NCBI RefSeq assembly: GCF_000380645.1
Contig: NZ_AQXZ01000018.1
Coordinates: 496,001 to 560,000 of the forward strand
Length of the DNA stretch: 64,000 nucleotides
Direction: 5' to 3'
DNA from: Smaragdicoccus niigatensis DSM 44881 = NBRC 103563
GTDB lineage: Bacteria; Actinomycetota; Actinomycetes; Mycobacteriales; Mycobacteriaceae
Shown here: positions 41,960 to 59,011 of the stretch, one piece after another
How the letters are laid out: each line of letters starts with the position of its first letter
Numbering within the stretch: the first letter of the stretch is position 1
Position numbers and translations under genes: made by a program
The notes under the pieces: model-generated
Database searches by the model: none
Seen by the model: the letters and a program-made list of their open reading frames with translations, nothing else
What the model was told of the DNA's origin: nothing

Positions 41960-42783
41960 CGCGCGTCTCCCTCAGTCTGCGTCCGGGCAGTGATCACTAA
42001 CCGGGCCATTTGCTCAGTCTTCGACCGGTCCACCTCGAGTGCACCGTTGACGTCGATGATCACGGCGGTCGGGTAGATGCGGCGCGCCAGATCCGGGCCA
42101 CCAGTGGCCGAATCGTCGTCGGCGGCATCCCACAACGCCTCGATCGCGATGGCCAGGGCTTCGTCGGCCGTGAGGCCCGAGCGGTAGAGCTTCTTCAACG
42201 ACGACTTCGCGAAAAGCGAACCGGAACCGATCGCGTGGTAGCCGTCGCGTTCCTCGCTGCGGCCGCCGACGGCGTCGAACGACACGATCCGCCCAGCCTT
42301 GGCGGTATCCGCCTCATCGAGGTCGTAGCCCACGAGCAGCGGAATCGCCACGAGCCCCTGCATCGCGGCCGGCAGATTGTTTCGAACCATGGTCGACAGC
42401 CGGTTGGCCTTGCCGTCGAAGGTCAGCGGAATGCCTTCGATCTTCTCGTAATGCTCGAGTTCGACCGCGAACAGACGCACGAGTTCGATCGCGATGCCAG
42501 CGGTGCCGGCGATACCAGCAGCCGAGTAGTCGTCCGTGATGTAGACCTTCTGGACATCGCGGCTGGCGATGAGATTGCCCATCGTCGCGCGGCGGTCACC
42601 CGCGAGAATCACACCCCCGGAGAAGGTCACGGCGACGATCGTGGTGCCGTGGGGCGCGATATCGCCAGCGGGACCCGTCACCCGACGCCCCGGCAGCATG
42701 TCCGGTGCGTGAGTCTCGAGAATTTCACTGAACGAAGAAAGATGAGAACCGTAGTGGAGAAAGCCTCCCCGCGCTTCGGTCAC
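41956..42783 (-). CDS. prcB: Proteasome beta subunit PrcB
   Basis: The 275-residue precursor has a propeptide of 46 residues ending DIAPHG. Cleavage exposes Thr47 ([11 protein letters not shown]), the active-site nucleophile. Asp63 in AGDRRAT and Lys79 in VQKVY are further catalytic-core residues. It forms the inner catalytic rings of the 20S core. The start overlaps the pup stop by ATGA. Confidence 0.96.
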
Positions 42784-42974
42784 TGGCCGCCCTTTTGCAC
42801 GTAAGCGCGGACGAAGTCTTCGGCGTTCTCCTCGAGCACGTCGTCGATCTCGTCGAGCAGGTCGTCAGTGTCTGCGGCGAGCTTTTCGCGACGCTCTTGG
42901 CCAGCGCCTGTCTCACCGGGGACGTCATCATCCTCGTCGCCGCCGCCGACCCGCTTGGTCTGCTCCTGCGCCAT
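42780..42974 (-). CDS. pup: Prokaryotic ubiquitin-like protein Pup
   Basis: The 64-residue, acidic, mostly disordered protein ends in YVQKGGQ. The final glutamine must be deamidated by Dop before PafA can attach it to lysines. The central segment ([28 protein letters not shown]) forms the helix that threads into the Mpa coiled coil. It is encoded directly before prcB, as in other actinobacteria. Confidence 0.98.
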
Positions 42975-43068
42975 GGCAACCCCCTACGCTTCTACCTAGA
43001 ACTCCACCGTACCGACGGAAGGCCGTCGTTGCCGGTCGAGACGCGTTTTACGTCCCGGATTTGATCTT

Positions 43069-44568
43069 CTACGTCGTCAGCTGATCGACGAGTTCGCGCG
43101 CCGAACTGACTGCGTCCAGCAGATTTCCGACGTGTGCACGGCTGCCCCGCAGCGGTTCGAGAGTCGGAATCCGGACCAGCGCGTCGCCGCCAAGGTCGAA
43201 GATCACCGAGTCCCAACTGGCCGCTGCGATGTCCGCACCGAACCGGCGGAGGCACTCACCCCGGAAGTACGCCCGGGTGTCCGTGGGTGGGTTGCGCATC
43301 GCGGCGAGCACCTGTTGCTCGGACACCAGACGCTTCATCGAGCCGCGCGCAACGAGGCGGTTGTACAGTCCCTTGTCGAGGCGAACGTCCGAGTACTGCA
43401 GGTCGACGAGGTGCAATTTCGGTGCAGCCCAGCTCAGGCCCTCACGACTGCGCATGCCCTCGAGAATCCGCAGCTTCGCCGGCCAGTCGAGCAGTTCCGC
43501 GCATTCCATCGGGTCACGTTCGAGCAGGTCGAGCACCATTGCCCAGTTGTCGATGATGTCGCGGACGCGGTCGGTGTTGCGGCCCTGGCGGTCCATGAAC
43601 GCGCTGACTCGGTCGAGGTACGCACGCTGCAACGCCAGGCCGGTCATCTCGCGTCCGTCCGCGAGCGCCGCCGTCGCCCGCAGGGTCGGGTCGTGGCTGA
43701 TGGTGTGCACGGCCGTCACTGGTCGGGCCAACTGCAGGTCGCTGAAGTCGACTCCCGCTTCGACGAGATCGAGTACCAGCGCCGTCGTTCCCACCTTGAG
43801 GTAGGTCGACATCTCGGCGAGGTTCGCGTCCCCGATGATGACGTGCAGGCGGCGGTACTTGTCGGCGTCCGCGTGGGGTTCGTCGCGCGTGTTGATGATG
43901 CCGCGCTTGAGGGTGGTCTCGAGCCCGACCTCGACTTCGATGTAGTCGGCACGCTGACTGATCTGGAAACCGGCCTCGTCACCGTGCTGCCCGATCCCGA
44001 CTCGTCCGGAACCGGTGAACACCTGGCGAGACACGAAAAATGGCGTCAGACCAGCGATGATCTGGTTGAACGGCGTGTCTCGGGACATCAGGTAGTTCTC
44101 GTGCGTCCCGTACGACGCACCCTTGCCATCGACGTTGTTCTTGTAGAGCTGGAGTCGCGGCGATCCGGGGACGCTCGACGCGTGCCGCGCGGCGGCCTCC
44201 ATGACTCGCTCACCGGCCTTGTCCCAGATCACGGCGTCGAGCGGATCGGTCACCTCCGGCGCGGAGTACTCCGGATGCGCGTGGTCGACGTACAGCCGGG
44301 CACCGTTCGTGAGGATCATGTTCGCTGCGCCGACCTCATCGGCGTCGATGATCGGCGCCGGTCCACCGTGGCGGCTCAGATCGAAACCACGGGCGTCCCG
44401 CAGCGGCGACTCGACCTCGTAATCCCAACGCGTCCGCTTCGCGCGGGGAATCCCCTCCGCGGCCGCGTAGGCGAGAACGGCCTGAGTCGAGGTGAGGATC
44501 GGGTTCGCGGTCGGGTCGCTGGGCGAGGAAATCCCGTACTCGACTTCGATGCCGATAATCCGCTGCAT
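43069..44568 (-). CDS. dop: Pup deamidase/depupylase Dop
   Basis: ATG 44568 gives 499 residues, beginning [14 protein letters not shown]. Dop converts the C-terminal Gln of Pup to Glu and removes Pup from substrates. It shares the glutamine-synthetase-like fold of PafA, with the catalytic Asp in [16 protein letters not shown] and [19 protein letters not shown]. The 40-residue loop region of Dop ([23 protein letters not shown]) is visible after the first strand. It is 94 bases upstream of pup. The open frame extends 16 codons further upstream. Confidence 0.97.
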
Positions 44569-44621
44569 ATGGCCGACTGTATCCGTCCGCGTACGGTCCC
44601 GCGTACGCGACTCCAAACGAT

Positions 44622-47444
44622 TCAGTTGACGCCCATCGCCGCGCGGACCCGCGCCCGGTCTCGGCGCGCACGTTCGGCGGCAGTGTCATCGCCGAGCGCG
44701 GAGTGAATGCGGGCGAGCAGCTCCCAGGGCCGGTCTTGATATGGCTCCAACCGGAGCGACAATTCGGCGGCTTGCCGAGCCTGCGCGAGCTGACCGGCGC
44801 GCCACAGTTCAGCAGCCTGGTCCAGTGCGGTACCGGCGGCCACGGTCCGAAGTCGCTCCCGTTCCGCGGCAATAAACTCCACCCGACCCTCGCTAGGCAG
44901 CAACTCGCCCCGATAGACGTCGAGGGCGCGGGCGCGAAACCGGATCCGATCGCCGGGTTCGACCGAACGATGCGCCCGGTTGACGTTGTCCTCGAAGGTG
45001 CGGACGTCCGACGAGCAATGGTCCGGCAGCTGTAATCGATAAGCGTCGCCGGCTCGCTCCACCGCATAGTTCGTCCCGGCCAGCAACGCACGAATGCTCG
45101 ACACCGCCACCTGCAGACGGTGGCTGGCCACCTTGTGCCCCACGTCGGGCCAGATCGCATCCTCGAGGAACTCGTGCCGACACGGCCTTCCCGCGTTGAG
45201 CGCGAGAATCCCCAGCAGGGACCGCGCCTGCGGACGCAAAGCGCCGGCGTCGAGAGAGGCGCCCGCCGTCTCGATCCGCAGGCCGCCGAAACAGAAGACG
45301 CCACCCGACTGAATCGCATCGACGTGCGCGGGCGTTTGGATTGCCCGGAACGCAGCCAAGGGGAATCCGCACGAACGTGCCACCGAGTCCGCCTCCTCGG
45401 CACGCGACTCAATGGCACCGAGCGCGAGCGCCCGCGCGCCACGCAGGTGGAATTCATCAGCTCTCGCAGCGAGTTCAGCGGCGACGGCGACAGTCCCGCC
45501 GCCCGCGTAAAGGTCCAGAATCTGGCACCACAGAGCGAGTACGGGCGCTTCGAGTTCGAGGAACCGCTTGCGGGCCTCATTGAGGTCGATGGCGGCGGCG
45601 GCCGGGTCACCGTTCAGCAGCCGAGCAGCGCCGATCATCAGTGTCAGAAGTGCCGACCCCCAACGATCGCCGCGCAGATCGGAGTCGTCCTTCATCTGCG
45701 TGCAGATGGAAAGACGCCACACTGCCTGCTGACTGACCACAAGAACGACTTCCTGCAGGGCGTGCGCTATTCGAGCGATCCAGGGAAATCCATCGCTTTC
45801 GGCTACCACAATGAGTTCGCCGAGCACGCCGGCCGCGTCCTCGCCCGCAGAGTTCGCCACATCCGCGATCGCCAGCCCGACTCCCGAGAGTGCGGATAGC
45901 AGCGGTGTAACTGTGCGGCCCGATCGGATTCTTCCCAGCGACTGCCCCACTTGGCCAAGTTCACCGGCCACCAACGCCAGAAGACCGTTGACCGTCTGAT
46001 GAGCGTCATTTCCGATGTGGCCGGTGACAACCAGTGGAACGGGGCCAGACAGTGCAGCCCGAACCCGAGCACTCCAATGCCCCGGTGCCGACTGTGGCTG
46101 CGAGATCGCCGGCGCGTGGGGCAGCCATCCCACCACAGCATCCGATTCGGCACGACATTGCCGCCGATAGGTCGGCTCATCGTGCATGTCGTGCGCGAGT
46201 TGGTAGGCGTGCACCGCGTCGGCAAGCTGGCCGTGCCGAGCGTGTCGGCGAGCGATCGCGAGCGCGAGCCACGGATCTCGCCGCCAACTGTTCGGTGGAG
46301 AGATCCCGCCATGGTCGTCGACCACGTCCCCGATTTCGACCGAATGCTCGCGGACAATCTGCGAGACCCGCTCCCAGTTCTCCGCCTTGGCGAACGCTTT
46401 TGCGGCCGAGCGCATCCGACCGTGACTCAAGAGAACCTCGCCGCTCCGGACGTACCACGCCCGCGAGCCCGCGTGACCGAGTTCCTCGACGATGACCTGT
46501 TCGAGGTGCGACCGCAAGACCTCGTGATACCGGTATTCGACGCCGTCGTCGGTCGACACGAAGAGTTGCCGAAGTTCGAGTTCAGACAGGATCTGCGCAC
46601 TACCGGTCGTGTCGAGGAGTTCGTCGGACAGATCCGCGGTGAGGCGATCGACGGTGCAGGTACGCAATAAGAAGCGCCTATGTTCGTCGGGAAGATCGGC
46701 GAGAACATGGCGCGTCAGATACGAGCGGACCAGTCGTGAGCTGGCTCCGAGTTCGAGTACAGCCTGATGTCGTGCGGCGGTACTTCTACCGGTGGTGGCG
46801 AGGTGGAACAGTTGGAGTCCGGCCGCCCATCCCCCGATGCGGCGCGTGAGCAGTGCTGCAGCATCTGGTCGCAGAGGCTCCCGATAGATCCTTTCGAAGA
46901 GTTCCTCGACCTCCCACGGGCGGAACCGAAGGGCCGAGCCATCGACCTCTGCAGCCACTCCCGATCCGCGTAACCGAGGCATATTGATCGAGGAACCACG
47001 TCGACTCCCGAACAGCAGACGTAGACCACGCGGGCGGAGGTCGACGAAGCGTTCGAGCGCGCGCTCGGCCGGAGTACCCGCGATTTCGTGCAGATCGTCG
47101 CAGATCAGCAGTCCTTCGACGCCGCCGGCATCCTCGAGCCCCGCGAGGAAAGCCGACATGGTAAGCGGGCAATCCGGCGCGGCGAATCCCGGAACCGCCC
47201 GCGCGAGGTTCGCGACGAGCGCAGCTTCGGTGTCGTCGTCCGGAGTCGCTCGATACCAACCGAGCTCCCGCGATGCGTGTGCTGCGATTTGTGCGAGAAG
47301 CGTCGTCTTACCGGAGCCGGCCGGCGCCACGACGAGCCCTACCGTGCCCGCGGAGTCGAACGAGAGTTGGTTCTCCAAACGTGGCCGGACGAGGCCGATG
47401 GGGTCGGGAGGGCGGAGCTTCTCGCGAAGGACCAATGGCTGCAC
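44622..47444 (-). CDS. STAND-ATPase regulator with C-terminal SARP (wHTH-BTAD) domain
   Basis: The 940-residue protein is a MalT-like hybrid. An N-terminal STAND ATPase domain (Walker [15 protein letters not shown], about 39-52; Walker [10 protein letters not shown], about 113-121) leads into a winged helix and a TPR-like helical middle (about 340-700). At the C-terminus is an OmpR-type winged helix (719-808: [32 protein letters not shown]) and a bacterial transcriptional activation domain (about 815-937). MalT-like proteins usually end in a LuxR helix; the SARP ending is unusual. It should be an ATP- and ligand-dependent activator. It faces a divergent LuxR gene across a region with SARP-type direct repeats. 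Confidence 0.88.
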
Positions 47445-47559
47445 GGCATTCCTCGTCGGTGAGATGAGATGACGCCGCTGTCATGATCGCCAATGACCGA
47501 TCTGTCTAGATCGACTGAACCCCACGGTACTCAGAGAAGTCCCGCCCCGAAGGACATTG

Positions 47560-47593
47560 TGTTGAGCACTTGTTGAGCACTTGAACTGACACT
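47560..47593. promoter_or_regulatory. SARP-type direct repeats with 11-bp period before a LuxR gene
   Basis: The heptamer TTGAGCA occurs at 47562-47568 and 47573-47579, part of an 11-bp unit (TTGAGCACTTG) repeated without a break. SARP regulators typically bind heptamer repeats with an 11-bp period. In their promoters the -10 box starts 8 bases after the last heptamer; here that position is GACACT (47588-47593). It lies in the 193-base gap between the SARP-hybrid gene and the LuxR gene. Binding is inferred. Confidence 0.5.
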
Positions 47594-47637
47594 CAAGGGC
47601 AACCGAAGAGGCACCGTTTCACTGGAGGCAGCTGATC

Positions 47638-48264
47638 ATGGAGGCACGCGTCAACACCTTCGTGTATTCGACCGATCCGATCCTTCGCGCCGGCGTTGAG
47701 AGTCAGCTGCGGATGCGCGCGGAACTTGCCATCCTCAAAACCTCCCAGCGTTACGCCGCCAACGTGTCAGTGCTGGTCGCAGACGTTTTGGACGCCGAGG
47801 TCAAGCAGGTTTTGACCGACCTCGCACGGAATTCGCGCTCCCGAAAACTACTCGTTCTCCGGCATGTCGAGGAGACCGCCTTGATCTCCGCGGCCGAAGA
47901 CGGCGTGAACGGCGTCTTGCGACGCAACGAAGCTACCTCGGACGCACTGACGCGCGCGATCCTGCGCCTCAACCGCGGTGAAGGTGTCATTCCGGCGGAC
48001 CTTTTGGGCACACTTCTGAACCAGGTCGGACGCCTGCAGAGGCAAGTCCTCACGCCGCGCGGACTCAGCTTCACGGGTCTCACCGATCGCGAGGTGAAGG
48101 TGCTGCGACTGGTCGCCGAAGGGCACGACACCTCCGAGATCGCGGCCGAGCTCAGCTACAGCCAACGCACAGTTAAGAACGTCCTCCACGACGTCACGAC
48201 CCGTCTCCAACTCCGCAACCGATCGCACGCCGTTGCGTATGCGATGCGCGAGGGGCTCATTTAG
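47638..48264 (+). CDS. LuxR-family regulator with degenerate receiver domain
   Basis: The 208-residue protein has a receiver-like N-terminus (about 1-125) and a LuxR helix-turn-helix (about 145-205: LTDREVKVLRLVAEGHDTSEIAAELSYSQRTVKNVLHDVTTRLQLRNRSHAVAYA). In the receiver, the first strand has a single Asp (YSTDP) rather than the usual acidic pair, and the conserved lysine is arginine (VLRRNE). Asp54-type phosphorylation is uncertain, so it may act as an atypical regulator. GGAGG lies about 11 bases before ATG 47638. SARP-type repeats lie upstream. Confidence 0.88.
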   Translation: MEARVNTFVYSTDPILRAGVESQLRMRAELAILKTSQRYAANVSVLVADVLDAEVKQVLTDLARNSRSRKLLVLRHVEETALISAAEDGVNGVLRRNEATSDALTRAILRLNRGEGVIPADLLGTLLNQVGRLQRQVLTPRGLSFTGLTDREVKVLRLVAEGHDTSEIAAELSYSQRTVKNVLHDVTTRLQLRNRSHAVAYAMREGLI

Positions 48265-48274
48265 GACTTCATGC

Positions 48275-48547
48275 TCAGATCTCGTCGAGCGTGACGATTC
48301 CGTCCCGAAGCGCCTGAGCCAGCAACGCCTCCTTCGATGACGCGTTGCGGCTCACTCGCTTGTACTTGAGACGAACCCGGGTCAGGTGTGTGCTCACCGT
48401 GCCAGTGGTCATAAACAGCGTTTTGGCTGCGGACGACTTCGAACCAGACTGAAGCCACACCCGGAGCACCTCCCGCTCCCGGGGCGAGAGCTTCGGGTCG
48501 GGGAAGCCTGAACCCTCCGGACCTGAAGGTCCCACTTCGGCGGCCAT
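48275..48547 (-). CDS. Receiver-less LuxR-type DNA-binding protein
   Basis: ATG 48547, with GGAGG 9 bases upstream, gives 90 residues: a short Gly/Pro-rich lead, then a complete LuxR helix-turn-helix (LSPREREVLRVWLQSGSKSSAAKTLFMTTGTVSTHLTRVRLKYKRV). No receiver or sensor domain is present. About 39 of 71 residues match the HTH of the response regulator at 57357-58076, so one may derive from the other. It converges on the LuxR gene at 47638, with stops 10 bases apart. Confidence 0.8.
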   Translation of the reverse strand: MAAEVGPSGPEGSGFPDPKLSPREREVLRVWLQSGSKSSAAKTLFMTTGTVSTHLTRVRLKYKRVSRNASSKEALLAQALRDGIVTLDEI

Positions 48548-48553
48548 TTTCAC

Positions 48554-49244
48554 CCACCTCCGGATCGGAGTTTACGTTCAATAACTTGAGCAAACCAGGC
48601 CGGGCAAGCAGCGGCAAACATATTCGAACAATGTATATTGATCGCTCTACAAACACCCGCGAACACAACGGTTGCTTAATCAACAAAATAGGGGATATTC
48701 GTATATCGATTAGGATACTAATATCATTCGATGAATATACAGTCGAATAGTTCGGACCACGTCACACAAGCCGACATTCCCGCCACAAACCACATCCACA
48801 AAGCCGTCAAAAAGGCTCAACCCCACCTGGTTGCGGCCCATCATCGCAGCATAGGCATTGTTTAATTACTTTATGCCACAACATATTTCGGGACACACGT
48901 AACTTCATGATCAGCGAATGCGGGCAACTCGAGTTGCCCCGTTGCAAATGATCGAGATTGTCACGCATGAGGTGCGCTTTTACGCTAATGCGCCTACGGA
49001 AAATGGTCGACAGGTCGACCTCAACGGCTTTTGGAAACCCACCGGACACCGCGGGCACGGAGAACGTTCAGGAGGACTGGGGAAATGTCCATCGAGCAAT
49101 ATACTTCGAACTTTTTCGCCCCATTTCCTCTACCGAAGGGAGATTTTTAGGTTGAACATTTAACTGCGTGGCGTTTCAAGGGGGAACTCCGCGCAACGGG
49201 GCGAAGCGAGCGTTATCGCCCGTGCTTGGAAGGATCCGCGTCAC
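48554..49244. other. AT-rich, gene-free control region upstream of the repeat proteins
   Basis: About 690 bases hold no convincing gene. GC is low: 48661-48720 is about 35% GC, against about 64% for the window. The region has an 18-bp perfect palindrome centred on CTCGAG (48922-48939), a 7+7 inverted repeat ggtcgac/gtcgacc (49005-49020), and TATACT (49100-49105), which could be a -10 box. Several short frames cross it but have poor codon use. It probably carries the promoters of the flanking genes and could bind an Lsr2-type silencer. Confidence 0.6.
48922..48939. promoter_or_regulatory. 18-bp perfect palindrome, possible operator
   Basis: GGGCAACTC followed by its exact complement GAGTTGCCC makes an uninterrupted palindrome about 310 bases before the first repeat-protein gene. 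Its length and symmetry suit a dimeric regulator such as a LuxR protein. No second copy was seen in the window. Confidence 0.4.
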
Positions 49245-50324
49245 ATGACTACACAACACAAGGCCTGGCGGGCCGCCAGAATGACAGTCGCTGCAGCGGC
49301 TTCCGCCGCCGCATTCACGCTCACCGCCGCAGGAGTGGGCAACGCCGCACCGAACGTCTGTGCCTCCAACGGGACATCGAGTTTCAACAGCGGTTCGGCC
49401 AACTGCACCGCAACAACTGGTAACGCCGCTGCCGCAGCAGGTGCTGACGCCAGCGCGTCGGCCACCGGTGGCACGGGCAATAAGGCCACCGCAGTCGGAC
49501 TTGACAGCACGGCCGCCGCCGGCGATACCGACGGCATCAGCTCGGGCAACAACAACACCGCCAACGCCTCAGGCACCGACAGCACTGCGAAGGCCGGCGG
49601 CTTCAACGGCAACAACGGCGACGGCAACACGGCCACCGCTCGCGGCACCAACGCCGGAGCTTATGCCGGCGGCTTCAACGGCGACGGCGACAACAACACA
49701 GCCACCGCCCGCGGCACCAACACCACCGCTGTCGCCGGCGACGGCAACAACAACACAGCCACCGCCCGCAACAACAGTTTCAGCACGAACAGTTCCGCGT
49801 ACGCCTACGCCGTAGGCGGTGACGGGAACTCCGCAACCGCCACCAACAACGGCGGCGTCAACAGCAACGCCAGCGCCTACGCCGGATATGGGGGGGACGA
49901 CAACAGCGCGACCGCCACCAACAACGGCGGCGTCAACAGCGGCGCCTACGCAGACGCATCCGAAGGAAGCAACAACACGTCTACCGCCACCAACAAGGGG
50001 AGCAACAGCTTCGCCGACGCGATTAGCGGTTCCGGAAACAACAACACCGCCACCGCCACCAACACGGGAAGCGGCACGAGAACCAGTCGCGCCGGGGCGA
50101 TCGCGGATGCAAACTTCGGTGACGGAAACAACGCCACGGCGAAGAACACGGGGCGGGGCACTGCGTCTGCTCTCGCCGGCGGAGACCCGATGACCTCCTC
50201 CGATGGAAACACCGCAACGGCTACCAACAGCAAGGCCGGAGACGGGTCTGCCACCGCCAATCTCGGCGGAGCGACTGCCAAGTCCACCGGACCCTGCGTC
50301 ACCGTCAACATCACCTGCCCGTAA
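49245..50324 (+). CDS. Secreted Asn/Thr/Ala/Gly-repeat protein (beta-solenoid-like), copy 1
   Basis: The 359-residue protein has a signal peptide (to about residue 35, AAGVGNAAPN) and then about eleven imperfect repeats of 19-28 residues. Each pairs a [D/N]NTATA strand with an AxAxxG strand. This alternation recalls the head repeats of trimeric autotransporter adhesins and other beta-helices. A cysteine pair opens the mature part (CASNGTSSFNSGSANC) and another closes it (CVTVNITC), so disulfides may cap the solenoid. No sorting signal or membrane anchor is seen. It begins AWRAARMTV, like its neighbour, and has a GGAAGG ribosome site upstream. Confidence 0.8.
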   Translation: MTTQHKAWRAARMTVAAAASAAAFTLTAAGVGNAAPNVCASNGTSSFNSGSANCTATTGNAAAAAGADASASATGGTGNKATAVGLDSTAAAGDTDGISSGNNNTANASGTDSTAKAGGFNGNNGDGNTATARGTNAGAYAGGFNGDGDNNTATARGTNTTAVAGDGNNNTATARNNSFSTNSSAYAYAVGGDGNSATATNNGGVNSNASAYAGYGGDDNSATATNNGGVNSGAYADASEGSNNTSTATNKGSNSFADAISGSGNNNTATATNTGSGTRTSRAGAIADANFGDGNNATAKNTGRGTASALAGGDPMTSSDGNTATATNSKAGDGSATANLGGATAKSTGPCVTVNITCP

Positions 50325-50419
50325 TTTCCGACTGTGGGCCGTAACCTGCGCAGCCGCTGCCGTCTGCGCGGGCCACGCCCCGGGATTCCTGGCAACTATC
50401 AACCACACGAAAAGGGCGA

Positions 50420-50442
50420 GCCGGGGCGGCCACCGCCTCGGC
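50420..50442 (+). terminator. Weak hairpin between the two repeat-protein genes
   Basis: A 10-bp stem (gccggggcgg / ccgcctcggc, with one G-T wobble) and a 3-base loop lie about 95 bases after the stop of copy 1. There is no T-run. It could attenuate read-through into copy 2, or the two genes may have separate promoters. Confidence 0.35.
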
Positions 50443-50530
50443 ATGGCTCTGCCAGCCCGCCCGGCACGAAACTGCCCGCGACGTCGCAGCAGACCGTAGT
50501 CGTTTGACCGAAAGAAAGAGATCACACCCC

Positions 50531-51640
50531 ATGCACATTCAGTACCGAGCGTGGCGCGCCGCACGGATTGCTGTTGCTGTCGCTGCCTCCACTGCGGCGG
50601 CGAGCATGGCCTCAGCCGGCGTCGGTCAGGCCGTCTCGCCACCAAGTGTGTGCGTGTCCACGGGAACCATGGGTTTTCACAGTGGTACCGCCACCTGTAC
50701 CGCTGATCCAGGCAACATCGCGCACGCGGTCGGAGCGGGGTCGAGCGCTACTGCGACCAACGGCACCGGTAATCGGGCGAACGCATCGGGGACCAACGCG
50801 TCGGCGACCGCCAGTAACGGCGATAACAACACCGCCACCGCCAGCGGGACGGGCAGCACCGCACGAGCCGGTGGTATCGATCCGGGCACCACCGGCAGCG
50901 GTAACACCGCGACTGCCGGGGGCACCAACTCGCTCGCGATCGCGGGGGCAACCGGAGCACCCGGGACCAGCGGCAACTTCAACACCGCGATCGCCCGCGG
51001 CACCAACACTTCGGCCACCGCGACAAACGGCGACTCTAATACCGCCATCGCAGTCAACCGCAGCAACGATGTGACGACCGGCGCCACCGCGTTCGCTTCC
51101 GGTGGCGACAGCAACACCGCGATCGCCGCGAACAGCGGCAGCAGCCACGCCATCGCCGTCGCAGATGCCTTCAGCGGCAGCAATAACACCGCCACCGCCA
51201 TCAACACTGGCAGCGGGACAAATCTAAGTTCTGCAGTCTCACTGGCATCCGCGGGGGAGGGAAACGCCGCAGATCCGACCAACGGTAGCGGCAACACCGC
51301 GACTGCCTGGAACAAGGGGTCGGGAGTGACCGTCGCTGCGGCTGGAGCCGGTGACAACAACACCGCTACCGCTGTCGGCGCGTCTAGTGACGTCACCGCT
51401 GCGCTCGCCGGCGGCAACGGCGCCGACCCGACCAGTGGCAACGGGAACACCGCCTTCGCGAGCAGCACGGCCCTCACAACTCAGAAAACAGAAGCCCTGG
51501 CGGATGGCGGAAACGGCAACGGCGCCATCGCCCGCAATGGCGGAACGGCAACCGTCCATGGTGACAACAGCCGTGCCAGCGCGACCGGTCTATGCAGCAT
51601 CACTGTCATTGGAACGAGCCAATCTGGAATGTGTCACTGA
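50531..51640 (+). CDS. Secreted Asn/Thr/Ala/Gly-repeat protein (beta-solenoid-like), copy 2
   Basis: ATG 50531 gives 369 residues. I prefer it over the upstream start of the frame because MHIQYRAWRAARIAV then aligns with the start of copy 1. After a signal peptide come repeats of the NTATA / AxAxAxG kind (GDNNTATASGTGSTARAGG, NFNTAIARGTNTSATAT). Opening and closing cysteine pairs (CVSTGTMGFHSGTATC and CSITVIGTSQSGMC) match the layout of copy 1. The two genes are tandem paralogues. A surface or secreted structural role, such as adhesion, is inferred. Confidence 0.78.
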   Translation: MHIQYRAWRAARIAVAVAASTAAASMASAGVGQAVSPPSVCVSTGTMGFHSGTATCTADPGNIAHAVGAGSSATATNGTGNRANASGTNASATASNGDNNTATASGTGSTARAGGIDPGTTGSGNTATAGGTNSLAIAGATGAPGTSGNFNTAIARGTNTSATATNGDSNTAIAVNRSNDVTTGATAFASGGDSNTAIAANSGSSHAIAVADAFSGSNNTATAINTGSGTNLSSAVSLASAGEGNAADPTNGSGNTATAWNKGSGVTVAAAGAGDNNTATAVGASSDVTAALAGGNGADPTSGNGNTAFASSTALTTQKTEALADGGNGNGAIARNGGTATVHGDNSRASATGLCSITVIGTSQSGMCH

Positions 51641-51788
51641 CCGGCCTCGGAGGGCAAGGGAGCCATCCGCAACGCGGTGATACCGACGGGGTTAGCGAAT
51701 CAGTTGCTGATCGAGTCAATATTCAGACATTTGTACGACTGACAGACTCGTCAAGACCTTTGCGCTCAACAGCCTGATGGTTCGAAGA

Positions 51789-51808
51789 ACCTGTGCAAAA
51801 ACACAGGT
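51789..51808 (+). terminator. Small hairpin after the repeat-protein genes
   Basis: Perfect 7-bp arms (acctgtg / cacaggt) enclose a CAAAAA loop, about 150 bases after the copy 2 stop and before the next gene. There is no T-run, so its use as a terminator is uncertain. The rest of 51641-51897 shows nothing else clear. Confidence 0.35.
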
Positions 51809-51897
51809 AAAGGCACTAGCTTGGCCACGCAGTCACGATGCGTCGCAGCGGCGATTCAGCCTGGACGAGAGCCCCGACGTGTGGTTTGCTGCAACGC

Positions 51898-52923
51898 ATG
51901 ACGCAGTCCGGACCTCCGCTGATCGTCTTCAATCAAGAGATAACCCCGCGCGATCACCTCATCCGTCTCACGAATCCCGATGCCCCGGTTGCCCATCCAC
52001 TCGCCACCCTGATCGGACAGCACAACGGCCTGCTCGGCGCAGCCGTGGCCGGGCAACTATTCCTCGCGACCGCAACATCGGACGATCCCGTCCGACTGCG
52101 TATCGAGGTCCTCGACAGCTCCCCGGAAATGGACACCCGGTGGCAGGACATCGTGGAAGTCTCCTTCACGCCGCAGTCGATCCCGCTGTCACTCGTCGGG
52201 GCTGACTCGGAGATGTATCCGCTCGGCTTGATGGGCGGTTTCGAATCCGGCCGCACCTACCGAGTGCGTTACTGCGTCAACGGCTTTGGCAGCACGAGTC
52301 CCACCGTGCAGGATGCCTATCAACTGCAGCTATGGCCAGCCCCGATCGCTCCAGACGTCATCGTCAATCAAACGAGTGCGGCCGCCAACCGATGGCACCG
52401 CGCCACCAAGGATGCGGCCGAGAATCTGCGCGTCGTCGAAGCTGAGATTGCTCGGCTCGAATCGGAGCGCATTGCCGCACTCTCGGCCGAGCCGGAGTCT
52501 CCCTTCCCACCCGGGCAGTCTCTTCTCATTCGAACCGACTTCACCAATGAGGCCGCGTGGGAGGAAACGGTCGAGGCCGCGATGGAACCGTTGGATCTCG
52601 GCGGAATCGAAGCGTGGGCGAACCTGACCCTCGTCGACGATCCGCAATTTGATTCGATGCCGGTTGACGACCTTCGGACGTTCGTCACGGACTACAGCTG
52701 GACCTTCGTTGCCGACAGCCGCACCATCACCGACCCGGAGCATCCGATCCTCGCGCTCAACAACGACGAGTTCGACCCCGAACTCGCCAAGTACCCCACT
52801 CTGCGGGTCGTACCGCGGCAGATGTTCTGGATCGAATCGAATCTGTCCATCGCCAACATGTCGTTCAGCTCGTTTGCGTCCAGCGCCGATCCCGACGGCG
52901 TCTTCCGCGGCTTTCCGGACTGA
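51898..52923 (+). CDS. DUF6924-like protein with an extra N-terminal domain
   Basis: ATG 51898 gives 341 residues. The N-terminal half (about 1-150) is a beta-rich domain (IVFNQEITPRDHLIRL, LFLATATSDDPVRLRIEVLDSS, FESGRTYRVRYCVNG). A charged helix (about 170-195) links it to a C-terminal domain. This looks like DUF6924: LLIRTDFTNEAAWEETVEAAM, then LTLVDDPQFDSMPVDDL and the end MFWIESNLSIANMSFSSFASSADPDGVFRGF. There is no signal peptide. Function unknown; the family assignment is from memory of the pattern. Confidence 0.65.
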   Translation: MTQSGPPLIVFNQEITPRDHLIRLTNPDAPVAHPLATLIGQHNGLLGAAVAGQLFLATATSDDPVRLRIEVLDSSPEMDTRWQDIVEVSFTPQSIPLSLVGADSEMYPLGLMGGFESGRTYRVRYCVNGFGSTSPTVQDAYQLQLWPAPIAPDVIVNQTSAAANRWHRATKDAAENLRVVEAEIARLESERIAALSAEPESPFPPGQSLLIRTDFTNEAAWEETVEAAMEPLDLGGIEAWANLTLVDDPQFDSMPVDDLRTFVTDYSWTFVADSRTITDPEHPILALNNDEFDPELAKYPTLRVVPRQMFWIESNLSIANMSFSSFASSADPDGVFRGFPD

Positions 52924-52961
52924 TTCCCGGCATCCGAACGTCAAGGGTGTATGAGATTCAC

Positions 52962-53666
52962 ATGAAGCGTGTTCATGTTCTCCTGACCGGGCTGACACTC
53001 ACGATCGTCCTACTGTCGATCAACCGGCTCACGGACCTTACGCAGGGGCATCTGCCACCCCACGAGTTCCTGCGGTGGCTCGACTTCAACGCGATGATTC
53101 CGATTCCGCTGTTGACGATCGTGCTCTACGTCCTGCTACTGCGCGACGTTGTCAGGTCTCGATCGATCTTCACCCGGGAGCACGTCGCGTTGACGTTGCT
53201 GTTCATCGTGGGCGTTTACTTGCTCGGCGCCGCGTCCGGCGATCACGAGGTCACGAACTACCTGCATTACCGCTTCTGCACTCCGGACCCGGGCTCGATG
53301 CTGTGCCAGATCGTCATCACCAACGACGACGGCTTCGCGACCGACGTGTACTACTTCGGCGTCATCGCCCTCAATGTGGCGCTCATGCTCTTCGAGCTCC
53401 GCAATCCACGATCTCCTGAGGCCAGCCGGAAGAACCTCGTCGGAGTGAGCGCCAACGCGCTGGTCATCGGATTGGGCGTGTTCGCGAACCTGGCTTTCGA
53501 AGAGATCGGGCGCGACCTCATCTACTTCTCGCTGCTGCTCGTGACGGCTCTCGCGGTTCTGCTGTTCGGCCGCCAGAAGGTGGGTGCGCTACCGGTGACC
53601 TACTACTTCGCGTTCGCGTACGGACTCGGCGTGGCCGGCACGGCTGTGGCCAAGCTCGTCACTTAG
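52962..53666 (+). CDS. Multi-pass membrane protein of unknown function
   Basis: From ATG 52962 (GTG 52947 is an alternative) the product has 234 residues with about seven hydrophobic segments (VHVLLTGLTLTIVLLSI, IPIPLLTIVLYVLLL, VALTLLFIVGVYLLGA and others). A loop carries two cysteines (FCTPDPGSMLCQIV) that may form a disulfide outside the membrane. No transporter motif is recognised. It lies 38 bases after the DUF6924-like gene and its stop overlaps the end of the convergent YjbR gene by 8 bases. Confidence 0.75.
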   Translation: MKRVHVLLTGLTLTIVLLSINRLTDLTQGHLPPHEFLRWLDFNAMIPIPLLTIVLYVLLLRDVVRSRSIFTREHVALTLLFIVGVYLLGAASGDHEVTNYLHYRFCTPDPGSMLCQIVITNDDGFATDVYYFGVIALNVALMLFELRNPRSPEASRKNLVGVSANALVIGLGVFANLAFEEIGRDLIYFSLLLVTALAVLLFGRQKVGALPVTYYFAFAYGLGVAGTAVAKLVT

Positions 53667-54009
53667 CGTCGAGCTGCTTGACCAGCGTTTTTGGCGCCAC
53701 GAGCCGATACGACTGCTCGACCCATTCCTCGACCTCGACCCACTGGGCCTCGCTGACCTCAGTACCGAGTTCGATGCTCACCCAGCCGTGGCGTCCCAGG
53801 CCGTAGCCCGTGGGCGTCACGGACTCGCGAGAGGCGACCAGCGCGGCAGCTTCCTCCGGCGGCAACTTCACCGTGATGCCGGAGGCTTCCGGCGACGTGA
53901 ACACGAAGTTCTTCCCGCGCACACGGAACGTGGGTTCGCCGTCCCAGGCTTCGATGTCTTTGCGCTCAGCTTCGGGGAAGCTCAGCGCCAGCTTCTCCAG
54001 GCGCGGCAT
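53659..54009 (-). CDS. MmcQ/YjbR family DNA-binding-fold protein
   Basis: ATG 54009 gives 116 residues. The MmcQ/YjbR pattern is seen in LSFPEAERKDIEAWDGEPTFRVRGKNFVF, ITVKLPPEEAAALV and GWVSIELGTEVSEAQWVEVEEWVEQSYRLVAPK. Its fold resembles the CyaY/DNA-binding type, but no function is established. It starts 1 base before the end of the upstream GT87 gene, so the two are co-transcribed. Confidence 0.85.
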   Translation of the reverse strand: MPRLEKLALSFPEAERKDIEAWDGEPTFRVRGKNFVFTSPEASGITVKLPPEEAAALVASRESVTPTGYGLGRHGWVSIELGTEVSEAQWVEVEEWVEQSYRLVAPKTLVKQLDAK

Positions 54010-54010
54010 G

Positions 54011-55282
54011 TTAGACACGCGCGCCGACCTCGACGTCGTCAAGCTCAGCCATGAGGTCTTCGTCCGCACGCTCGCGGGTGTTGACCAGCAGGTAGGCCAG
54101 CAGTGCGAAGAACACCAGCACGTAAAGGTTGTTCGTCAGCCAGTGCACGGCCGGGCCGCCACCCTTGACCGCGGTGAGTCCGAGGAAGGCCGGACGGTCA
54201 GACGGGAAGCGGACAGGCCAGCAGGCCACCGCAGCGGTGACCAGGGCGACGGGCGTGATCGTCGGCCAGCGCGGGTCGTCCCAGGCACGCTGGGCGAGAC
54301 CGAGGATCAGCGGCAGGAACCAGACCCAGTGGTGTCCCCAGGAGAACGGTGAGATCGCGCAGGCTGCGATGCCGCAGAGGGAAACGGCGAGGAGAACCTC
54401 ACCGCGCGCATACAGGCGACGCATGATGATGAACGTCGCGAATGCGCAGGTACCCGCGACGGCGACCCACACGATCGTCGGCGGCGTCGGTGTTCCGAAA
54501 GCACGTGCGATGAGTCCCATGATCGAGAAGTTTGCGCCGTTGTCGGCGGGCGCGATCCGGGATGCGTGGAACACCGCGTCGGTCCAGAAATCGAACGAAT
54601 TCCGCGGCATCGCCGCCGCGGCGACGAGCGTGAAGCCAACGAATGATGCCCCCGCCACGTACGACTTCGCGCGCTCACCCACTCCGAACAGACCGGCGAT
54701 GAAGAGTCCCGGCGTGAGCTTCATGGCTGCCGCGGCACCGATCAGGCCCGGGGCGAAGCGATTACGCAGATGGAAACCGGCGAGCACCAGCACCATGAGG
54801 AAGATGTTGATCTGGCCCAAATGGACACTCGTCCAAATCGGCTCGATCCACAGCAGCAATGCCGTCGTGGCGCCAGCCGCGACCGCAAGTTTCTTACTCG
54901 CCCGGTATCCGAGCATTCGGAGACTCAACCAGCACGCCGCAAAGACCGCGGTGAGCTCGGCGAACAGAATCAGCTCGTCGTACCGGTGCGCGGACACCAT
55001 GGCCAACGGGATCATCGGAATTGCCGCGATCGGCGGGTAAACGAATTCCAATCCGTTCTTCAATCCGAACAGCGATCCCGAATACAACGGATGCCCATTG
55101 AGAATCCATCGGCCACTGATGCGATAGCACTGCGCATCGATCATGAAAGATCGCACGAGCTCATATCGCGGAAGTAGAAATGCGAACAAAGTTGCTGCGG
55201 CCACGCCGGCAGCGGTCAAGACGAACAGCCCCATTACCGAACGTCGACCGCGCCCACGACCCATCTCGAAGCTGGTCGACAC
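54011..55282 (-). CDS. GT87-type polyprenol-phosphate-mannose-dependent mannosyltransferase
   Basis: The 423-residue polytopic protein has about ten membrane spans. Near the first loop is the acidic region expected for a GT-C enzyme (SFMIDAQCYRISGRWILNGHPLYSG), followed by EFVYPPIAAIPMIPLAMV and HLGQINIFLMVLVLAGF, which resemble DUF2029/GT87 proteins such as PimE and related alpha-mannosyltransferases. A role in mannolipid or arabinomannan synthesis with Ppm1-made donor is plausible. It stands in the place of Rv2113/Rv2114 between dop and mpa, away from ppm1. Confidence 0.82.
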   Translation of the reverse strand: MSTSFEMGRGRGRRSVMGLFVLTAAGVAAATLFAFLLPRYELVRSFMIDAQCYRISGRWILNGHPLYSGSLFGLKNGLEFVYPPIAAIPMIPLAMVSAHRYDELILFAELTAVFAACWLSLRMLGYRASKKLAVAAGATTALLLWIEPIWTSVHLGQINIFLMVLVLAGFHLRNRFAPGLIGAAAAMKLTPGLFIAGLFGVGERAKSYVAGASFVGFTLVAAAAMPRNSFDFWTDAVFHASRIAPADNGANFSIMGLIARAFGTPTPPTIVWVAVAGTCAFATFIIMRRLYARGEVLLAVSLCGIAACAISPFSWGHHWVWFLPLILGLAQRAWDDPRWPTITPVALVTAAVACWPVRFPSDRPAFLGLTAVKGGGPAVHWLTNNLYVLVFFALLAYLLVNTRERADEDLMAELDDVEVGARV

Positions 55283-55345
55283 TCGGCCGACTCTATCACG
55301 ACCGAATCAGGAATCCACCGGCTGATTTCAGCCTTAACGCTCCCG

Positions 55346-57106
55346 TTACAGGTACTGTCCGGTATTCGATTCGGTGTCGATCGCCCTGCTCGCACTGGCA
55401 TTCTTGCCGGTCACCAGGGTGCGGATGTAAACGATCCGCTCTCCCTTCTTGCCCGAAATCCGTGCCCAGTCATCGGGATTCGTGGTGTTCGGCAGATCTT
55501 CGTTCTCCGCGAATTCGTCGACAATGGAGTCGAACAAATGCTGGATTCGAAGGCCCGGTGCGCCAGTATCGAGGACCGCCTTGATCGCATACTTCTTCGA
55601 ACGGTCGACGATGTTTTGGATCATCGCGCCGGAGTTGAAGTCCTTGAAGTACAGAACCTCTTTGTCACCATTTGCGTAAGTGACTTCCAGGAAGCGGTTG
55701 TCTTCGCTTTCTGCGTACATCCGCTCGACCACTCGATCGATCATCGCGCGAATGCAGAGATGCTTGTCGCCACCGAATTCGGCGAGGTCGTCGGAGTGGA
55801 TCGGAAGGCCCTCGACGAGATACTTCGAGAAAATGTCCCCAGCCGACTCCGCATCCGGACGCTCGATCTTGATTTTCACGTCCAGGCGGCCCGGACGAAG
55901 AATTGCGGGGTCGATCATGTCCTCGCGGTTCGATGCGCCGATAACGATGACGTTCTCGAGGCCCTCAACACCGTCGATCTCCGCGAGCAGCTGCGGGACG
56001 ACCGTCGTCTCGACGTCCGAGGAGACACCCGATCCACGCGTACGGAAGATCGAGTCCATCTCGTCGAAGAACACGATGACCGGGGTGCCTTCGGACGCCT
56101 TCTCGCGAGCTCGCTGGAAGATGATCCGGATGTGACGCTCGGTCTCACCGACGAACTTGTTCAGCAGTTCCGGGCCCTTGATGTTGAGGAAGTACGACTT
56201 CACTTCCTTGGCATCCTCGCCACGCGCCTCGGCGATCTTCTTCGCCAGCGAGTTGGCCACAGCCTTCGCGATGAGCGTTTTACCGCAGCCGGGAGGGCCG
56301 TAGAGCAGAACGCCCTTGGGCGGACGGAGCGAGTACTGCCGGAACAGTTCCTTGTGCAGGAACGGCAGTTCGACCGCGTCGCGAATCTGCTCGATCTGGC
56401 GTCCGAGGCCACCGATGTCGTTGTAGTCGACGTCCGGGACCTCTTCGAGGACGAGGTCTTCGACCTCTGCCTTGGGAATCCGTTCGAACGCAAAGCCGGC
56501 CTTCGTGTCGACCAGGAGCGAATCACCCGGGCGCAGACGACGGATCGGGACGTTCGGGTCTTCGAGGTTGTCTGTGTCGACGAGGGCTGCCAGCGGTTGC
56601 GCGAGCCACACCACGCGCTCCTCGTCGGCATGACCGACCACGAGGGCACGCTTTCCGTCATAGAGGATCTCGCGAAGCGCGCAGATCTCCCCCACCGACT
56701 CGAACTCCCCAGCGTCGACCAGCGTCAGCGCTTCGTTGAGGCGAACGGTTTGGCCGAGGTGCAGCGTCTCCAGGTCGACGTTCGGAGACGTGTTGAGACG
56801 CATCCGACGCCCAGAGGTGAACACGTCGACGGTCGCATCGTCGTGAATGCCGAGCAGAACGCCGTAACCGCTCGGCGGCTGGCCCAGTCGGTCGACCTCT
56901 TCGCGCAGCGCAACAAGCTGCGAGCGTGCGTCCTTGAGCGTGTCGAGGAGCTTGCCATTGCGCGCCGTCAGGGAGTCGATACGTTCCTGAAGTTCGCTTG
57001 TGCGCCCAGGAGATTCGAGCAATTGGCGGCGCAGGGCAGCCGCCTCTACACGCAGAGACTCGAGCTCTTGCCTTGCGGCCGAATCCGAGTGTTCGTTCGG
57101 GCTCAT
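55346..57106 (-). CDS. arc/mpa: Proteasome-activating AAA ATPase ARC/Mpa
   Basis: ATG 57106, with GGAGGAG 6 bases upstream, gives 586 residues. An N-terminal coiled coil (about 1-75) binds Pup and two OB-like domains follow (about 85-235). The AAA domain has Walker [16 protein letters not shown], Walker [13 protein letters not shown] and arginine-finger region [19 protein letters not shown]. The C-terminus ends GQYL, the motif that docks into the alpha ring and opens its gate. It unfolds pupylated proteins for PrcBA. Confidence 0.97.
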
Positions 57107-57249
57107 CGCCACTCCTCCCGTTGCCGGTCTTTTCACGCTACCGGGAACTTGCGATTTACGCCGGGCGTCAGAGTCTCAGCGTGATCACGTCTCGTCCGTT
57201 TTGCACGTCACTTCATAGAAGAACTACCCGATTCCCTAGTCGGTTCCCT

Positions 57250-57281
57250 ATGTCATTCAACCGACATGTCATTCAACCGAC
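57250..57281. repeat. Perfect tandem 16-bp repeat before the response-regulator gene
   Basis: The unit atgtcattcaaccgac occurs twice without a gap, at 57250-57265 and 57266-57281, about 75 bases before the response-regulator start and 144 bases before arc/mpa on the other strand. Just upstream, ttcccta also recurs (57234 and 57244 areas). It looks like a pair of operator sites. Confidence 0.6.
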
Positions 57282-57356
57282 GACAGCGAAATTCCCTCCG
57301 AACCACTATTTTGGATTACCTAAAGCTCGCAGGTGAGAAAGAAGGGCCGGTAAGTA

Positions 57357-59011
<1,655 letters not shown>

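Follow-up and report, generated by a model that had tools for sequence, protein, structure and literature searches.

The stretch of DNA considered here comprises 64,000 nucleotides from Smaragdicoccus niigatensis DSM 44881, a relative of Nocardia, and is referred to below as the window. It belongs to a genome of 5.32 Mb that is rated 100% complete (G000, in which the window is G000:C18:496001-560000). Between the genes dop and mpa it carries a STAND ATPase with a Streptomyces antibiotic regulatory protein (SARP) part, two LuxR-type regulators, LuxR1 and LuxR2, and two tandem exported repeat proteins, REP1 and REP2. An earlier note, made from the sequence alone, had proposed that these five genes form a single surface-fibre system. 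They are probably two modules and not one: an orphaned control cascade of the type found at extracellular contractile injection systems (eCIS), beside an unrelated family of exported four-cysteine beta-solenoids.

Genes between dop and mpa

The features of the locus are listed here with their strand and the evidence for each.

43069..44568, minus strand: dop (context), from the open reading frame (ORF) list; homologues in 57 of 61 relatives, gene order the same in congener G001
44622..47444, minus strand: STAND (AAA) ATPase with C-terminal SARP part (Trans_reg_C and BTAD), 940 aa; relative of eCIS-linked regulators by Pfam, relatives, tree and dN/dS
47445..47637, no strand: divergent control region between STAND and luxR1, 193 bp; 178 of 193 positions identical to congener G001
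47561..47578, plus strand: predicted SARP operator GTTGAGC-N4-GTTGAGC, 18 bp, from motif scoring; perfect 11-bp tandem repeat at 47562-47583
47638..48264, plus strand: LuxR1, receiver-like domain and GerE helix-turn-helix (HTH), 208 aa, from Pfam and a model; relatives near eCIS sheath genes
48275..48553, minus strand: LuxR2, HTH-only, 92 aa, from a domain scan; missing at the G001 locus
48554..49244, no strand: AT-rich stretch ahead of REP1; GC content 0.499, that of the window being 0.648
49245..50324, plus strand: REP1, exported four-cysteine repeat protein, from the ORF list, cysteine counts and a modelled beta-solenoid
50531..51640 (open frame from 50504), plus strand: REP2, paralogue of REP1, from the ORF list, alignment and cysteine counts
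51838..52923, plus strand: DUF6924 protein gene (context), from Pfam; next gene common to the window and congener G001

Every feature that the earlier note had named is present at these positions, and its domain calls are right. This includes the receiver-less LuxR2, the AT-rich control region and the two paralogous secreted repeat genes.

The sole congener compared, G001, has dop, STAND and LuxR1 in the same order and orientation, with STAND 87% and LuxR1 97% identical to the window proteins. In both species the likely start of dop lies 53 bp past the STAND stop, on the same strand. According to the locus comparison, LuxR2, the AT-rich stretch, REP1 and REP2 are missing there. Their slot holds an HNH-type gene, open in two pieces, and is followed by the shared DUF6924 gene. 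Because the congener locus lacks LuxR2 and REP, and because REP ORFs occur at eight other places in G000, the five genes do not form one unit. Instead, REP1, REP2 and LuxR2 would fill a variable slot beside luxR1. The claim of a single fibre system thus fails: the five genes are not inherited together, and the repeat genes occur without these regulators, an outcome that the note itself had named as refuting it.

The note had also described dop and arc/mpa as normally close together, which is true of some relatives and not of others. Among 20 relatives, the interval that corresponds to window 43069-57136 is a variable spot, measuring less than 700 bp in 8 of them and ranging from 86 bp to 12.2 kb. 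None of the 20 dop-mpa stretches (6.1-17 kb each) has a match to STAND, LuxR1, LuxR2 or REP1 by tblastn at E<=1e-8.

The regulator pair and its predicted operator

In the window protein, the AAA/STAND ATPase is N-terminal and the SARP part, residues 735-928, is C-terminal. Its match to AAA_22 (E 6e-6, 27 bits) is at the Pfam cut-off; those to Trans_reg_C (3e-5) and BTAD (8e-4) are significant but below the Pfam cut-offs. The protein nests among eCIS-linked STAND proteins. The proteins of the window and of G001 group with nine Mycobacterium/Mycolicibacterium eCIS rows in a 62-row tree (SH-aLRT 92), and they fall within a set of 13 rows that includes 11 eCIS-linked ones (SH-aLRT 99).

A search with six aligned STAND proteins gave 509 named matches, the best 80 of which make up the STAND loci considered here. 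Tail-protein-I-like and baseplate-J-like genes lie near STAND in 48 of these 80. Of the 32 marker-free loci, 9 have no STAND ORF in the set and 16 have less than 3 kb to the right of STAND. In the other 7 the STAND ORF has at least 3 kb to its right; two of them, L196 and L203, are strong matches, and the remaining five are weak (E 1e-43 to 1e-32).

LuxR1 matches GerE above the Pfam cut-off (E 2e-13). It is modelled as a receiver-like alternating beta/alpha domain with an HTH (pLDDT 79.0, pTM 0.67), and the Pfam scan gives no PAS match. A whole-genome search at E<=1e-25 finds LuxR1 matches in 17 of 101 relatives. A sheath gene is present in 10 of these 17 genomes, compared with 18 of 101 overall (hypergeometric 2.4e-5), and in 8 of the 10 genomes having both, the LuxR1 relative and the sheath gene lie on one contig, 1.5-20 kb apart. 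In G027 a Pvc16_N gene lies 4 bp past luxR1; in G063 luxR1 is followed by eCIS_core and sheath genes. The window's divergent arrangement of STAND and luxR1 recurs in G073, at L154 of Blastococcus and at L156 of Micropruina, where 0.3-3.2 kb separate the two genes. The kinship of LuxR1 to eCIS-linked proteins is given by identities of 47-64% and synteny, without a tree. At another locus, L260 (G058:C8, 8537-10649), a LuxR1 relative adjoins a pyridoxal-dependent decarboxylase, in a genome with no sheath or Baseplate_J match.

The machine itself was not found in the genus. Sheath, Tail_P2_I and Baseplate_J have no match in G000 or G001; the same markers do match in G027, G063, G073 and G090. With 1150 ORFs from eCIS loci as queries, no structural eCIS remnant appears beside the regulator pair in the window or at the G001 locus. 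The hits are STAND, LuxR1, an AAA likeness to mpa and, at 23 kb, a single weak one (E 6e-6). Both regulators are nevertheless under purifying selection. Counted by our own procedure from two sequences, G000 and G001, dN/dS is 0.135 for STAND and 0.035 for LuxR1; the comparison genes dop, mpa and the DUF6924 gene give 0.010, 0.031 and 0.208. Purifying selection together with the missing eCIS markers thus indicates that the switch has been kept although no machine is found. In Virgisporangium, L203 (7791-11437) also carries STAND, LuxR1 and the operator; about 7.8 kb on either side are free of tail-I and baseplate-J genes, and the locus is perhaps a second orphan regulator pair.

The control region between the two genes is conserved between G000 and G001 to the extent listed above, although the dS of both genes is 0.44-0.50. 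The motif GTTGAGC-N4-GTTGAGC reaches the full score of 14/14 in G000, G001, G063, G027 and G073, and 13/14 in G090, L154, L156 and the Virgisporangium locus L203. In L170, where the luxR1 start was placed by hand, the score is 12/14 (p 0.002). The operator was examined in 12 of the 17 LuxR1 genomes, namely all except G071, G072, G074, G083 and G084; the LuxR1 match in G072 covers only 66 residues.

An operator of 12-14/14 stands before luxR1 in 10 of the 10 examined cases with a STAND gene. It is found in none of the six LuxR1 genomes without a full-length STAND match, whose best scores are 8-11/14: 11 in G042, 10 in G064, 9 in G066 and G080, and 8 in G058 and G091. The difference between 10/10 and 0/6 has a Fisher probability of 1.2e-4, kinship being ignored. 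All matches of at least 13/14 in 277 sequences (2.45 Mb, overlapping) directly precede luxR1 relatives; the one in L276 is the site of L274 with luxR1 cut off. The window has a sole match at this level, at luxR1, and the next best (12) lies inside the STAND gene. A different 11-bp direct repeat (9/11, shuffle p 0.075) occurs about 120 bp before luxR1 at L233 of G064, an eCIS genome without STAND, and is perhaps the site of another regulator.

These sites resemble a known arrangement. Classical SARP sites are direct heptamers with four-nucleotide spacers, according to the available text of PMC5930380 and PMC3367932. The same portions of these sources describe PimR, a SARP-LAL regulator of the pimaricin cluster of Streptomyces natalensis, which binds three heptamers between the divergent genes pimR and pimM; PimM, the LuxR-type product of pimM, activates the structural genes. 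As in that pair, the window has a SARP part joined to a large ATPase, a divergent LuxR gene, and heptamers with 4-nt spacers between them. In either system the LuxR protein presumably has structural genes as its targets, as far as the available account of PimM goes. There are also differences. The SARP part is C-terminal in the window protein but N-terminal in PimR, and the heptamer is GTTGAGC at a predicted site rather than CGGCAAG. LuxR1 has a receiver-like domain where PimM has a PAS domain. Finally, relatives of the window regulators occur at eCIS loci, not in antibiotic clusters.

From the SARP-type heptamers and the precedent of PimR at pimR-pimM, the STAND/SARP protein is predicted to activate luxR1 here and, in relatives, luxR1 together with the eCIS genes behind it. 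The first module would be the cascade that controls an eCIS, though no structural genes of one were found in the genus (G000, G001). In this model, the STAND/SARP protein would sense a signal, bind the direct heptamers between both genes through its SARP part, and activate luxR1. LuxR1 would then act on further targets.

Regulators of these kinds have been noted at contractile systems before. In the part of Geller et al. 2021 that was available (PMC8213781), 25.8% of eCIS loci are reported to have GerE next to them and BTAD is counted as a shell domain, both being named without a circuit. The window regulators share these domain kinds and have relatives at eCIS loci; unlike the regulators in that survey, they belong to genomes (G000 and G001) without a sheath, Tail_P2_I or Baseplate_J match. 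SlpR/SCO4263 of Streptomyces is a LuxR-type regulator of a contractile-particle cluster, and its deletion removes the particles (available text of PMC8505568 and PMC10286715). Its likeness to LuxR1 is one of regulator type and kind of cluster. No operator or SARP cascade at contractile injection loci was found in the literature searched, the available text of PMC12961389 included; most subscription journals lie outside that search.

The four-cysteine repeat family

The second module would consist of REP1 and REP2, exported beta-solenoids from a family expanded in this species. Their mature parts are 49% identical, and their N-termini look like signal peptides by eye. In G000 the family has 20 ORFs, spread over nine places and six contigs; one of the ORFs is only 104 aa long. 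Counted from the first conserved one, all 19 members measured have exactly four cysteines, two at each end of the protein; the capping cysteine pairs described in the earlier note are therefore real. Coil anchors are mostly 19 or 18 residues apart.

The note had called for a structure prediction of the repeat proteins. The model of REP1, built from a two-row alignment, is a beta-solenoid (pLDDT 74.4, pTM 0.79). Foldseek finds no known fold for this model at E<=0.001, while VIA-align returns general beta-helices, the best with Z 14.3, rmsd 4.1 and 280 aligned residues. Export and a beta structure are supported for the repeat proteins; the cysteines may form disulphides, and the proteins may be located in the envelope.

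The family is so far unclassified, with no credible match in the family libraries searched. A Pfam scan of all 19 members at E<=1 yields just three hits, each from a single member, to unrelated families and at chance level (best 0.034). For REP1 and REP2, NCBIfam and PHROGs offer no matching model at E<=0.01. The repeats resemble the beta-solenoid repeats of YadA heads, curlin and ice-nucleation proteins in being short with small alternating residues, and in the modelled solenoid of REP1. Unlike these, they have coils of 19 or 18 residues and four conserved cysteines, and at E<=1 the Pfam models for those repeats match none of the 19 members.

Several proposals about the family were rejected. 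Kinship with curlin was suggested by a weak match of REP1 to the curlin-associated repeat protein 8c50_A (E 5e-4), which carries composition bias, and one other member tried gave none. Ice binding or ice nucleation calls for a continuous TxT ladder, and here TxT is not continuous, being found in 53 of 218 coils with a longest run of 6. For a mobile origin, a 115-residue query gave no match in phages or plasmids, and a four-row alignment gave none in viral contigs. Common upstream DNA of the REP genes produced many matches, which were read as coding repeats of the preceding gene or as close copies.

Outside this genome the family is sparse. With at most 16 candidates scored per genome, an N-terminal REP profile matches in 18 of 401 genomes of the taxonomic family, from two genera, and in 8 of 396 genomes of the phylum, both counts including G000. 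The second genus is probably Mycobacterium, because one REP match lies within a PPE-looking protein. The same four-cysteine layout is found in G597. G001 has a REP relative at a place syntenic with one of the REP places of G000, and the family is therefore older than its own expansion. REP-like repeats also occur within much longer open frames at L111 (G306) and at L097 and L113 (G413); one of these frames begins like what we take to be a PPE protein.

No regulator gene is common to the REP places in the stretches compared, from which ORFs with at least three REP-like motifs had been dropped beforehand, and none of the 80 named STAND loci gave a match to REP1 or REP2. LuxR2-like HTHs are widespread (96 of 101 relatives), and of the seven places shown for G000 none is at a REP place besides the one in the window. 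An HTH 53% identical to LuxR2 lies near mpa, at window 57846-58070 on the plus strand, within a longer open frame; its counterpart in G001 looks like a response regulator. A DUF222 gene (L047 3465-4835), a 90%-like piece of the same (L046 7693-8273) and an HNH-type gene (L048 6494-7870) lie close to REP places or, in the congener, within the REP slot.

The DNA around these genes gave no further elements: no Rfam family in window 42000-58000, no sigma-70-like promoter in window 47400-51900, and a folding z of -1.2 for the spacer between REP1 and REP2.

Weighing the readings

Several observations count against a shared eCIS-type cascade. LuxR1 lies within the examined STAND flanks in only 5 of the 80 named loci. 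At L137, L138, L140, L141, L142, L146 and L147 no LuxR1 was found, and the examined stretches of these STAND loci hold no operator of at least 12/14. In G063 and G090 the eCIS locus has STAND at one end and luxR1 at the other, and the two are not divergent neighbours. The strong STAND loci L196 and L203 have space for eCIS markers but carry none, while G058 has a LuxR1 relative without a sheath or Baseplate_J match; sheath matches in general may also be prophage. G042 has LuxR1 but no STAND match, and yet shows a near-operator of 11/14 (shuffle p 0.022). The comparison of ten cases with six ignores kinship, and its STAND search scored at most eight candidates per genome.

One could suppose that, once the eCIS itself had been lost, REP1 and REP2 came under the control of the surviving STAND/SARP-LuxR1 cascade in this one species. 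Both genes lie downstream of luxR1 on its own strand, REP1 has a long AT-rich upstream stretch of its own, and purifying selection has kept both regulators without an eCIS. Such a cargo swap would mean that the cascade of a lost injection machine, operator included, now runs exported four-cysteine beta-solenoid genes here. It is rather unlikely, however: the window's only match of at least 13/14 is at luxR1 and no operator lies near REP1, LuxR2 stands between luxR1 and REP1 on the opposite strand, the congener keeps the regulator pair without REP, and REP members at eight other places share no regulator in the stretches compared. We would give even less credit to the idea that STAND and dop form one transcript, so that the amount of Dop, an enzyme of the Pup-proteasome system, would depend on an eCIS-type sensor. 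The short distance on one strand in both species speaks for it but is no more than proximity; the operator is on the side of luxR1, and STAND precedes dop in none of 20 other relatives.

A third question is whether the GTTGAGC repeats are an autoregulatory site of LuxR1 and not a SARP site. That all matches of at least 13/14 in the examined sequences lie at luxR1 promoters would fit. Against this, the six LuxR1 relatives without a full-length STAND match lack a site of at least 12/14, two of them (G064 and G091) being in genomes with sheath genes, and an 11-bp direct repeat is the layout described for SARPs in the available text of PMC5930380. Autoregulation is accordingly an unlikely explanation of the site.

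The reading as two neighbouring modules, an orphaned eCIS-type cascade and a separate repeat family, bears on a matter about which little is known, namely how Actinomycetota turn on their contractile injection machines. The proposed circuit, from STAND/SARP through an 18-bp heptamer site to a LuxR protein and the eCIS, is testable, and its site is conserved over eight genera or lineages. The four-cysteine repeat family is a new object separate from it. A genus in which the switch would have outlived the machine makes it possible to ask what else the switch controls.

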